Source of the DNA: a bacterium
GTDB taxonomy: Bacteria > Bacillota > Clostridia > Oscillospirales > Acutalibacteraceae
Direction: 5' to 3'
NCBI GenBank assembly: GCA_020626545.1
Contig: JAHKZS010000037.1
Coordinates: forward strand, 1 to 14,584
Length of the DNA stretch: 14,584 nt
This document shows, piece after piece, positions 8,901-13,813 of the stretch; position 1 is the stretch's first letter, and every line of letters starts with the position of its first letter. The notes below the pieces were generated by a model, which was given only the letters and a program-made list of their open reading frames with translations, did not search any database and had not been told where the DNA came from. The position numbers and the translations under genes were made by a program.

Positions 8901-9765
8901 CGGCGACGACAGCCTCGGTAAGTTAGTAGAAACTCCCGCTAACTCCACAGGATTCTATCAGCCGGGTACAACTAACGTAGTTTACCTCTATAAGACTAAG
9001 GAAGACCAGCCTACAACAGCTCCTCCGACAGAAGCGACAACAGCCGCTCCTATCACAACAGCTCCCGCTTCCGAGACTGCGGCTCCTGTTACTATTCCTC
9101 CCGCTACAGGCGACAGCAAGATTTTAGGCGACTCTAACCTCGATAAGTCTGTAAGCATTAAGGACGTAACCTATATCCAGCAGTATATTGTTAACCTCAC
9201 ATTCTTCAGCAACAGAAGCATACTCAACGCGGATGTTGACGGAAACGGTATTGTAAATATCAAGGACGCTTCTCTTATCCAGAGATGGATCGCCAAGATT
9301 CCTGTTGATTACGAAATCGGTAAGGAAATCGCTGATACTCCTGTAGTTGTTCCTACTCAGGGACCTATCGTGACCGAAGCTACTACATTAGCTCCCGCAC
9401 CGACAGATCCTCAGACAGACCCGATTATCGAAACCGATCCCGAACCTGAGCCCGATCCCGATCCTCAGTACCAGACAGTTATGTTCTCCAACAATAAGGG
9501 TTGGACAGGACAGATTTACTGCTACTACTGGAACGAAGGAGAAGATCCGGGTAACTGGCCGGGAGAGGCTATGACCGAAGCGGGTACTAACGATTACGGC
9601 GAAGCCCAGTGGAGCATAGAGGTGCCCGTAGGTTGTAACGTAATCTTTACTAACGGTGAAGCTCAAACCGCCGACGCGTTATTCGACGGCTCACAGCAGG
9701 GATTCTTCCCGGCTTATCCTGAAGCTATGGATGAACTCGGACATTACCTTGTTGACAGTTGGTAA
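5974..9765 (+). CDS. Secreted type I pullulanase (GH13) with starch-binding modules and dockerin
   Basis: A 1263-residue exported enzyme that should cleave alpha-1,6 branches of starch or pullulan. Signal peptide 1-26. A CBM48-like domain (about 55-150, KVWSPAA at 70) precedes a GH13 domain with NWGYNP at 263 (type I pullulanase mark), DVVYNHT at 309-315, GFRFDLMG with nucleophile Asp380, GEPW with acid/base Glu409, and CHDD with His498 and Asp499. Then come two MucBP-like segments (about 690-845), a CBM26-like starch-binding module (about 847-942), another MucBP-like segment (to 1009), a Thr/Pro linker, a two-repeat dockerin (about 1050-1115), a second Pro/Asp-rich linker and a C-terminal starch-binding module (about 1166-1263). 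The architecture matches dockerin-bearing amylases of the R. bromii amylosome. The start is the ATG nine bases after GGAG (5961-5964); the in-frame TTG at 5965 directly abuts GGAG and is unlikely. Confidence 0.93.
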   Translation: MKMRRIAALMLAVLMLSTMAVISTSAAETGKVATGAYFNQSEASGRGYANAVYSGNDLGATYTPSATTWKVWSPAATKIELKLYKTGSDRENGAAVLGTHTMTKGTSSVWSVKLNGDYKNVYYTYLVTAKNVAGTVVTNETQDVYSKAVGVNGNRSMVVDLDSTDPEGWNSDKHVTFGTKTESAVWELHIRDFSADPDSGVSDKNRGCYLAFTEGGTTYKKQGTLKTCMDYLVENNINTVQIMPMADFDGIDEVYGASEVDRNWGYNPKNFNVPDGSYSSNAYDGNVRINETKQMVKALHDRGISVVMDVVYNHTAGADGSCFTKTVPGYYYRMTSQLAYANGSGQCNELASEKGMVRNFIVQSMEYWANEYHIDGFRFDLMGCIDITTLNQARTKMNAIDKNILMYGEPWTGGDSAIPSGTGPTESNTASLSDGVGVFSGTFRSAATRVQTTGSASQGWLGGTADWGGGAATVVSGIKGNLCDSRYKSKTVNFIDCHDDLTVWDKIVGAYTRSGEGKASTTSAANVNSTASNYTGKLKVAGALALTSQGISFFNAGTEFARTKQGQGNSYNSPDSINMLDWKRANTYKEVVDYYKGLRQINEVYSAFNDDGNTAASSMSMISQSGLFIGYTINNNKAGEWGKVAVLLNAGNSAASANLSGSWTVIANDKKAGLTSLGTASGSYSVPANSAAILVESSSYKDLSGNFKYGTLTTNHHIDGKVTTEKAYYRIGTKYTALKKTELLNNYNVRTEGTASGTFNGDTTVDYYYEANGKSFGDLTVKYLDQSNKKLTPDMVYTLEKGSKYSIPVCAIQSYQLDTTQYPSGTTGTFDGNAKTITFKYKPLASQTTTVHYHKTNSWSTVTCYAYTDDGIEPNGAWSKNPTMKADTTKGAGWYMCTLNVPACRVMFHPKSGSGQEPGQNEPGYAVGGECFIDNGVVTYESTITTSYIDIDTGKQLKADSSATAVKKNTDQYTTSGDDSLGKLVETPANSTGFYQPGTTNVVYLYKTKEDQPTTAPPTEATTAAPITTAPASETAAPVTIPPATGDSKILGDSNLDKSVSIKDVTYIQQYIVNLTFFSNRSILNADVDGNGIVNIKDASLIQRWIAKIPVDYEIGKEIADTPVVVPTQGPIVTEATTLAPAPTDPQTDPIIETDPEPEPDPDPQYQTVMFSNNKGWTGQIYCYYWNEGEDPGNWPGEAMTEAGTNDYGEAQWSIEVPVGCNVIFTNGEAQTADALFDGSQQGFFPAYPEAMDELGHYLVDSW

Positions 9766-9785
9766 TTAATTTAATAACTATAATT

Positions 9786-9816
9786 TAAGCGGACAGCTTC
9801 GGCTGTCCGCTTTTTC
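9786..9816 (+). terminator. Terminator of the pullulanase gene
   Basis: AGCGGACAGC (9788-9797), UUCG tetraloop and GCTGTCCGCT (9802-9811), followed by T4. A textbook intrinsic terminator 22 bases after the stop codon. Confidence 0.92.
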
Positions 9817-9865
9817 CGATTTATTTGATGATAAAATTATAGTTTTTTAAAAGAAAAATAATTTC

Positions 9866-13109: not shown

Positions 13110-13144
13110 AAAACGGCGCTCACTCATTAAGAGTGTGCGCCGTT
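13108..13144. terminator. Bidirectional terminator between convergent genes
   Basis: A 14-bp stem with one mismatch pairs 13112-13125 with 13131-13144. On the minus strand it is followed by T6 (13108-13113) and serves the XRE-like gene, whose stop codon overlaps its edge. The plus-strand tail is A/T-rich but has no clean T-tract. Confidence 0.75.
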
Positions 13145-13583
13145 AATTATATTTTACCATAACTAAATATTCTTTTTCGTTAGTTAAAATATGGTTAGGA
13201 TTTATAGGAATAAATACATGATCTTTAAAGTAATCTTTAATCATTTTTTTACTTTCGTTATATGCGAGAAGATAATCTCCCTCAATTTCTTTTGTTGCTC
13301 CAATCATCCATAAAGTCGGTATAGTTATTTTGATTTTATTTCCTGATTTAGAGAACACTACGGGATAGTACGCTCTCTCTTTTACATAAGGTAGGACATC
13401 TTCGTTTTTTAAATTATATACAGCTAAAATTGCCGATATTTCTTCATCGCTTGGGACGATATTTCCGTTTTCAAAATCTAAATATTTATACTGATCTATA
13501 CCGGTTTTTTTAGATATTTGTTTTACACTGATGTTGTTTTGCTTTCGGAGATTAAGTAAAAATTCAAAGTAAAATATGAGCAT
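13143..13583 (-). CDS. Small XRE-type helix-turn-helix protein with unassigned C-terminal domain
   Basis: A 146-residue protein. Residues about 8-62 look like a Cro/C1-type helix-turn-helix: LLNLRKQNNISVKQISKKTG, then YLDFENG and PSDEEISAILAVYNL, in the usual helix spacing. The C-terminal half (about 75-146, from YYPVVFSKSGNKIKITIPTL to EYLVMVKYN) is predicted mostly beta strands, and I do not recognise it. The frame extends eight codons to a TTG at 13605-13607, but the ATG at 13581-13583 has AGAGGT seven bases upstream (13591-13596), so that start is chosen. The gene lies directly behind a structured leader with an intrinsic terminator, so expression probably depends on read-through. It may control its own leader or promoter, but this is unproven. 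Confidence 0.7.
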   Translation of the reverse strand: MLIFYFEFLLNLRKQNNISVKQISKKTGIDQYKYLDFENGNIVPSDEEISAILAVYNLKNEDVLPYVKERAYYPVVFSKSGNKIKITIPTLWMIGATKEIEGDYLLAYNESKKMIKDYFKDHVFIPINPNHILTNEKEYLVMVKYN

Positions 13584-13608
13584 TTGGCAGACCTCTTTTT
13601 TGAACAAT

Positions 13609-13636
13609 AAAAAAGCACACAGCCGAAGCTATGTGC
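13609..13636 (-). terminator. Leader terminator with overlapping antiterminator, before the XRE-like gene
   Basis: On the minus strand GCACATAGC (13636-13628), UUCG loop, GCTGTGTGC (13623-13615) and T6 (13614-13609) form an intrinsic terminator with one mismatch. Upstream, TATGTG (13648-13643) can instead pair with CACATA (13635-13630), the 5' arm of the terminator. The two helices exclude each other, the hallmark of attenuation. The ribosome site of the gene begins 13 bases past the T-tract. Confidence 0.7.
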
Positions 13637-13778
13637 AAAAAACACATAACTCACGCTGCTAAACGAAATTGAACAATCTCTCTAAAAATAGGAAATGCCA
13701 AAAAAAGAGTATGTGTTTTTATCATGTTGACAAAAACAGCATCTCCACATTTAGAGAGTTTTATTCATTTCGTTTAGC
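13609..13778 (-). ncRNA. Rod-shaped 170-nt leader or small RNA, no known family
   Basis: Read on the minus strand, the RNA folds as one long rod. GCUAAACGAAAU (13778-13767) pairs perfectly with 13669-13658. GAAUAA nearly continues the helix with one bulge and one wobble. CUCUCUAAA (13758-13750) pairs with 13686-13678. GGAGAUGCU (13746-13738) pairs with GGCAUUUCC (13699-13691) using two wobbles. GUUUUUGUCA (13737-13728) pairs with UGAUAAAAAC (13724-13715) around a 3-nt loop. One asymmetric 15-nt single strand (13714-13700) contains U7. G-U pairs throughout favour an RNA over a DNA palindrome. The promoter at 13785-13813 predicts a start at 13778, the first base of the closing helix, and the RNA ends at the terminator. 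Confidence 0.6.
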
Positions 13779-13784
13779 AAGACT

Positions 13785-13813
13785 ATAATATCATAATTTA
13801 TAAGAAATTGCAA
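13785..13813 (-). promoter_or_regulatory. Promoter of the structured RNA and XRE-like gene
   Basis: On the minus strand TTGCAA (13808-13813), 17-bp spacer and TATTAT (13785-13790), preceded by TGA (extended -10). It lies immediately behind the aspartokinase terminator. Confidence 0.65.

Follow-up and report, generated by a model that had tools for sequence, protein, structure and literature searches.

The window, by which we mean the whole 14,584-nt stretch of DNA analysed here, carries on its minus strand a compact unit in which an aspartate kinase-type gene and its terminator are followed by a promoter, a structured RNA and an XRE-type gene (Table 1). The RNA is 170 nt long, read on the minus strand from 13778 to 13609, and its terminator ends just ahead of the XRE gene. 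Its predicted minimum free energy, −69.9 kcal/mol against a mean of −31.7 for shuffled sequences, was equalled by none of 200 shuffles. The 12-bp perfect closing helix, P1, described in the initial annotation was confirmed, and the promoter, in which TTGCAA and TATTAT are spaced by 17 nt with an extended TG, puts the predicted transcription start on the first base of that helix.

Table 1. Features of the RNA unit and of the gene behind it, in window coordinates
Feature	Position	Strand	Basis or remark
Gene for a 146-aa XRE helix-turn-helix plus HicB-fold protein, rare family	13143..13583	minus	
Shine-Dalgarno sequence GAGG of the downstream gene	13592..13595	minus	sequence
RNA element (rod, pseudoknot strand and terminator)	13608..13778	minus	R2 match, 115 bits, E 1.2e-20; fold z −11.9
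Intrinsic terminator, GCACAUAGC-UUCG-GCUGUGUGC-U6	13609..13636	minus	5' arm complementary to S
Strand S (GAGUUAUGUGUUUUU), pseudoknot partner of W or putative antiterminator strand	13638..13652	minus	covariation with W
P1 closing helix, 3' strand AUUUCGUUUAGC	13658..13669	minus	perfect pairing with 13778-13767
U7 portion of the asymmetric internal loop	13700..13706	minus	sequence; loop U-rich in the A7 consensus
Strand W (AAAAACACAUACUC), 3' side of P4 plus single-stranded toehold	13707..13720	minus	pairs with S
P4 apical hairpin, RNA nt 38-47 with 59-67 (UGCUGUUUUU / AAAAACACA)	13712..13741	minus	covariation
P1 closing helix, 5' strand GCUAAACGAAAU	13767..13778	minus	predicted first transcribed base is the first pair
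Promoter: −35 TTGCAA (13813-13808), extended −10 TG (13793-13792), TATTAT (13790-13785)	13785..13813	minus	sequence; predicted +1 at 13778

The gene behind the RNA had been read as encoding a helix-turn-helix protein, and the domain proved to be of the XRE type (HTH_19, E 9.5e-10); its start appears better placed at the ATG at 13583, behind the GAGG at 13595-13592. Foldseek assigned the protein a HicB fold with a best E of only 1.2e-3, on a structure model of moderate confidence, and the Pfam HicB family gave no sequence match to it; no claim is made on its N-terminal half, because AlphaFold confidence is low there. Among the four proteins scanned, namely this one and three neighbours (aspartate kinase-type, DUF4352 and ThiF-family proteins), no HicA was found. 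Of the 161 genus genomes, just two, the window's own and one other, carry the protein at high identity, and a profile search gathered three proteins in its family. Searches of viral contigs and plasmids returned nothing, while phages yielded two partial helix-turn-helix matches. At the site of the window's unit, between the aspartate kinase gene and a DUF4352-like gene, a sister genome (L018, G153:C26) carries a RelB plus ParE-type pair; in two others (G182 and G031) neither the RNA with its XRE/HicB gene nor the RelB/ParE-type pair was seen at the equivalent site. Elsewhere, at L090:1183-1482 (minus strand), a copy of the RNA stands before the gene for a small protein resembling the HicB-like half of the window protein.

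An initial search at the DNA level gave matches in 5 of 59 genomes including the window's own, the others at the terminator only. In a close relative, L016 (CAMHQC010000030.1, an uncultured Clostridia bacterium), the protein is 90-91% and the RNA 97% identical, and the RNA folds at z −7.0. Because this pair holds almost no covariation, the search was widened with a covariance model made from the two sequences (R1), which matched 71 of the 161 genus genomes. Judged by eye, its best matches share the promoter, P1 beginning at +1, the apical hairpin, the toehold, the strand after P1 and the terminator. Their consensus comprises an apical hairpin GUAUUUUUAU...GGUAAAAAURC, a toehold ending in GCUC and, following the closing helix, a strand close to GGAGCUAUGYRUUUUU.

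A second covariance model, R2, built from 43 members, revealed how widely the RNA is distributed. Matches were found in at least 118 of 161 genomes of the genus (E ≤ 1e-4), with at least 18 in the top genome, a number that may include opposite-strand matches of one place; in at least 145 of 398 genomes and at least 59 of 135 genera of the family (E ≤ 1e-4); in at least 100 of 295 genomes and at least 60 of 148 genera of the order (E ≤ 1e-5); and in at least 43 of 157 genomes and at least 31 of 116 genera of the class (E ≤ 1e-5). These counts come from up to 18, 7, 9 and 18 scored candidates per genome, respectively, with stricter filters applied, and they overlap and include the window's own genome. 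In the phylum sample of 119 genomes, where up to 24 candidates per genome were scored, only the window's own genome matched at E ≤ 1e-5 and none of the 118 others did, a useful negative control for the specificity of R2. By extrapolation, class Clostridia probably holds thousands of copies. An autoregulatory leader specific to the XRE gene, one of the possibilities raised at the outset, was dropped because of the 71 genomes already matched by R1; with R2, the RNA in at least 118 of the 161 genomes stands against the protein in only two.

The window's genome itself contains two copies, the second (L154, 2439-2633) lying 124 nt before a gene that we read as encoding a secreted CHAP amidase-like protein. 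A weak R2 match (24 bits) on the plus strand of the window, at 9765-9817, just past a large dockerin-bearing gene that we read as amylase-like, is probably merely a similar terminator. Five loci (L078, L089, L140, L065 and L145) hold tandem arrays of two or three copies, in which every copy has a promoter and a terminator of its own. In two cases (L083/L086 and L122/L125) a near-identical RNA and a near-identical downstream gene occur in two different genomes, which suggests recent transfer or close kinship. Searching with the RNA of one member (L063) returned two unannotated faecal "Bacteriophage sp." records and no match among plasmids, and one exact consensus pattern was not matched in viral contigs.

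The promoter belongs to the conserved unit. In 127 members, numbered from the first RNA base, the TTG at −35 to −33 is present in 94, 90 and 85%, the extended TG at −15/−14 in 92 and 93%, the TA at −12/−11 in 97% each and the T at −7 in 98%. The best −10 match lies at −12 in 93 members and the spacer is 17 nt in 92, while the first RNA bases are GC or GT in 121. The coincidence of predicted start and first closing-helix base noted for the window is thus borne out by a largely fixed distance between promoter and P1, and starting at the closing helix appears, from these alignments, to be a design general to the family.

Two sets of members were aligned for covariation, with shuffle statistics that retain kinship among the sequences. 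From the first locus set, in which 81 of 83 matches were kept and two opposite-strand ones dropped, 43 genus members were picked by hand, mostly with better scores and with some length outliers omitted (A7). From a second locus set, in which 46 of 53 matches were kept (six opposite-strand matches and L173, the same place as L153, being dropped), 42 members, none of the genus, were aligned after omission of L140_1501, L143, L149 and L154 as near-duplicates or from the window's own genome (A9); this second set leans toward the consensus because its members came from the best-scoring R2 matches. The compensatory changes that had been proposed as a check were found, both inside and outside the genus, in the closing helix, the apical hairpin and the terminator. 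Together these three helices have 97.8% of cells paired in A7, against 33-62% in slid registers, with 118 cells changed on both sides against 40.6 in shuffles; a measure based on pair types was weaker, 40 of 500 shuffles being as high. In A9 the figures are 98.4% paired (30-56% in slid registers) and 46 double-change cells against 9.7. P1 is paired in 100% of cells in A7, with double-sided changes in six of nine pairs, and in 99.7% in A9; its third pair in A7 is CG in 18 members, GC in 18, UA in five and AU in two, with zero mismatches. P4 is paired in 97.1% (A7) and 95.5% (A9) of cells, and the terminator changes on both sides in eight of nine pairs (A7) and six of nine (A9). The domain through the end of P1 folds better than its shuffles in all 127 members (15 shuffles each; median z −8.6, weakest −3.6), the unbranched rod being the minimum-energy fold in only 67. 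Of the stacked helices described for the window, P1 and P4 are therefore upheld by covariation, and P2 comes from single-sequence folds only.

Covariation further indicates a newly found pseudoknot, in which the strand following the closing helix (S) pairs with the supposedly unpaired side of the rod (W). In the window the two can form 14 bp around a single bulged U, and the copy departs from the consensus in a compensating manner, ACUC/GAGU replacing GCUC/GAGC. W:S cells are paired in 93.1% (A7) and 93.5% (A9), against 35-67% and 38-62% in slid registers, and in each set none of 500 shuffles was as high for cells paired, double-change cells or covariation score; pair-count and pair-type measures were weaker, with 10 and 12 of 500 shuffles as high in A7 and 52 and 350 of 500 in A9. 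Column 86:166 of A7 is AU in 19 members, GC in 15 and GU in nine, with no mismatch in 43, and its equivalent in A9 is GC in 25, AU in 11, GU in four and otherwise in two. The mean duplex energy is −15.9 (A7) and −14.9 (A9) kcal/mol, against −5.8 and −5.3 with shuffled S, and lies within the best 5% of shuffles for 43 of 43 and 41 of 42 members. Since W paired with the S of another A7 member still gives −14.1 kcal/mol, most of this complementarity is shared consensus, to which covariation adds. Five A:U pairs hardly vary, 21 of 43 members lack a pair at column 89:163, as do 15 of 42 at its A9 counterpart 70:142, and the four toehold pairs alone fail to beat shuffles in A7 (161/2000). Loose regular expressions recovered S in 95 and W in 102 of the 127 members. 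The asymmetric U-rich strand first noted on the rod exists, but this side of the rod is not simply unpaired, as the covariation of W with S indicates. Extended into the A5 tract, the W:S helix would displace the 5' strand of P4 in a toehold-like exchange. A major-groove triple helix between the U5 of S and P4 was set aside by hand, the strands being antiparallel.

The terminator's first arm offers S a second complementary partner. In A9 this pairing involves 95.0% of cells, slid registers giving 25-56%, with covariation at no excess over shuffles (52 of 500 reach it, and 234 of 2000 in a second test); in A7 it involves 89.1% of cells, and 11 of 2000 shuffles were as high. The duplexes average −11.5 (A7) and −12.5 (A9) kcal/mol against −6.3 and −6.7 with shuffled arms, and only 25 of 43 and 32 of 42 rank among the top 5% of shuffles; mean stability in A7 favours the terminator (−14.2) over the antiterminator hairpin (−10.7). 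Because the complementarity is conserved but lacks clear covariation, this third pairing is plausible, not proven, and would be the weakest step of the mechanism set out below. Of the terminator/antiterminator switch originally suggested, the terminator stands, as it covaries, and the antiterminator is possible.

Most copies lie before a gene. In 86 of the 123 members with enough downstream sequence, an open reading frame preceded by a Shine-Dalgarno sequence starts 13-56 nt past the RNA, the terminator lying directly ahead of the Shine-Dalgarno sequence, as against 5% of positions drawn at random in the same loci (189 of 3786). By a crude signal-peptide test of our own, 50 of the 86 encoded proteins look secreted. 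A Pfam scan of 40 of them found LRR_5 to be the commonest family (10), along with Peptidase_M23 (two), CHAP, NLPC_P60, Dockerin, ricin-type and C-type lectins, Big and Flg_new repeats, and also XRE helix-turn-helix, PadR, Penicillinase_R, AMP-binding, Formyl_trans_N, GIY-YIG and zinc ribbons; 12 of the 40 had no Pfam family at the limits used. The set is partly coherent, and its mixed nature points to no ligand.

No known family accounts for the RNA. Rfam 15 gave no match at the gathering cut-off on 8 + 15 member loci, nothing at 13608-13778 when the window was scanned to E 5, and nothing near the gathering score on L016 and L070 scanned to E 10, so that the Rfam match named as grounds for refutation is absent. 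Fremin and Bhatt 2021 (PMC8040213) report 3161 candidates, some of them structured RNAs near XRE genes. A description of the class was not found in the accessible parts of the literature searched (including PMC8040213, PMC11109978, PMC8632094 and PMC2864571). The family is apparently unlisted; it may be among the 3161 candidates of PMC8040213, and a description in print elsewhere is possible.

The family that sequence comparison establishes, with its anchored promoter, helices, pseudoknot, associated genes and distribution, is in our judgement rather probably an undescribed class of cis-acting, transcription-attenuating, riboswitch-like leader RNA. From its features we infer attenuation, the direction of the switch and any ligand, as follows. 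The conserved, strong promoter would start transcription on the first base of P1, as its sequence conservation suggests, and the nascent RNA would fold into the P1-P2-P4 rod, with a free toehold. S, made just after P1, would then pair either with W, as covariation indicates, or with the terminator's first arm, as complementarity allows. Were the rod and pseudoknot stabilised, probably by a small molecule or a protein, S would be held, the terminator would form and transcription would stop; otherwise, S would open the terminator arm and RNA polymerase would continue into the gene, which in the window would be the XRE/HicB-fold regulator and elsewhere often a secreted surface protein, a cell-wall hydrolase or a regulator. 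Of the interpretations first offered, the unassigned structured RNA stands and a cis-acting riboregulator or new riboswitch class fits best, whereas a type III toxin-antitoxin locus and XRE-specific autoregulation are not supported. A bolder and more tentative reading, somewhat short of an even chance, is that of a large riboswitch class of Clostridia through which a signal, which might be a second messenger or come from the cell envelope or the community, could coordinate surface proteins, cell-wall hydrolases and small regulators by toehold-like strand exchange between the rod and the antiterminator strand.

The mixed accessory genes fit a global protein signal as well as they fit a metabolite, and both W and S are conserved in sequence. 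A common RNA-binding regulator, acting as antiterminator or attenuator protein, could recognise the pseudoknotted rod and set read-through. No regulator gene common to the copies was seen, though, and the XRE/HicB protein is too rare to fill that role; we regard a protein-binding leader as somewhat unlikely, an estimate that overlaps with that for the leader class as a whole, of which it forms one of two variants.

At least five of the 123 copies (L093, L098, L151, L166 and L172) face a convergent gene and have no same-strand gene directly behind them, by hand reading of 26 cases in which open reading frames of at least 70 aa were considered, and an independent small RNA stays a rival for this reason. 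On this account the complete promoter-RNA-terminator unit, which the tandem copies with their own promoters also suggest, would act in trans, antisense through S or the U-rich loop or as a protein sponge, and would stand before genes by chance. In the window, the U-rich loop CUCUUUUUU (13709-13701) is indeed complementary over 9 bp to AAAAAAGAG (13601-13593) at the ribosome-binding site (4/2000 shuffles), and this match, examined in the window, is kept in the one close relative, L016, but the placement of 86 of 123 copies at 13-56 nt before a same-strand start codon speaks against chance; we consider the account unlikely. By eye, UUUGGCA is also complementary to UGCCAAA at the start codon, and this pair of strings likewise recurs in L016. 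An antisense switch of the loop against the ribosome-binding site is kept only as a local note.

That the RNA is the antidote of the XRE/HicB-fold protein in a type III-like toxin-antitoxin module is highly improbable: the order of promoter, RNA, terminator and gene, the modelled HicB fold and the RelB/ParE-type pair at the same site of the sister genome would suit it, but the window holds a single RNA unit with one strong sense R2 match in place of tandem repeats, HicB is an antitoxin fold, and elsewhere the RNA precedes secreted LRR, M23, CHAP and other non-toxin genes. A palindromic, MITE-like mobile element whose inverted repeat imitates a rod RNA is barely credible, since against the several copies per genome, the exchangeable positions and the weak opposite-strand matches, which arise because the rod is near-palindromic, stand the fixed promoter, the fixed distance to gene starts, the covarying terminator and the extra strand S, which lies outside the palindrome and covaries with W.

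Multi-copy regulatory RNA classes absent from Rfam are, in our judgement, rare finds. The present class spans many Clostridia genera with a self-contained promoter-RNA-terminator design, and among the genes behind it are those for secreted surface proteins (BspA-type LRR, lectin, dockerin, Ig-like), for peptidoglycan hydrolases and for regulators. Should it be a riboswitch, the molecule that it binds would represent a new signal controlling surface remodelling in these bacteria, and the covariation-backed model makes that idea directly testable.

Several known kinds of leader can be set beside it. T-box RNAs were rejected, with GGTGG in 0 of 127 members, as were leader-peptide attenuators, a Shine-Dalgarno sequence with an open reading frame of at least eight codons occurring in only 7 of 127; in the window, a 22-aa frame seen by eye is frameshifted in L016. 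The type III toxin-antitoxin systems ToxIN, CptIN and TenpIN share with the window the order of promoter, structured RNA, terminator and small protein gene, and also a pseudoknot; unlike them, it has no RNA repeats, and no ToxN/MazF-fold endoribonuclease was found downstream, where XRE and HicB folds in the window and LRR_5, M23, CHAP and others elsewhere occur instead. As for HicAB, a HicB-fold protein is present by Foldseek and no HicA lies among the three neighbours scanned; in contrast to the solved HicB structures (3kwr, 4p7d, 6g1n and 5yrz), the window protein adds an N-terminal XRE domain. Among the orphan RNA motifs of Clostridia is the HTH-XRE motif. Like it, and like the candidates near XRE genes in PMC8040213, the window RNA is a structured RNA near an XRE-type regulator gene; it has no Rfam match, and its class also precedes many secreted-protein genes. 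The class further shows two traits of riboswitches, a conserved, covarying RNA structure and a 5' leader position (86 of 123). Pseudoknotted aptamers joined to an intrinsic-terminator platform are found in the ZTP, fluoride, SAM-II and preQ1 riboswitch classes, and tandem copies with their own promoters are unusual for riboswitches. The present RNA differs from those four classes in that a promoter at fixed distance belongs to the conserved unit and that orphan and tandem copies have promoters of their own. It resembles them in its 5' leader position, its pseudoknot, its partly coherent gene set and its pairings with a terminator arm that may exclude one another.
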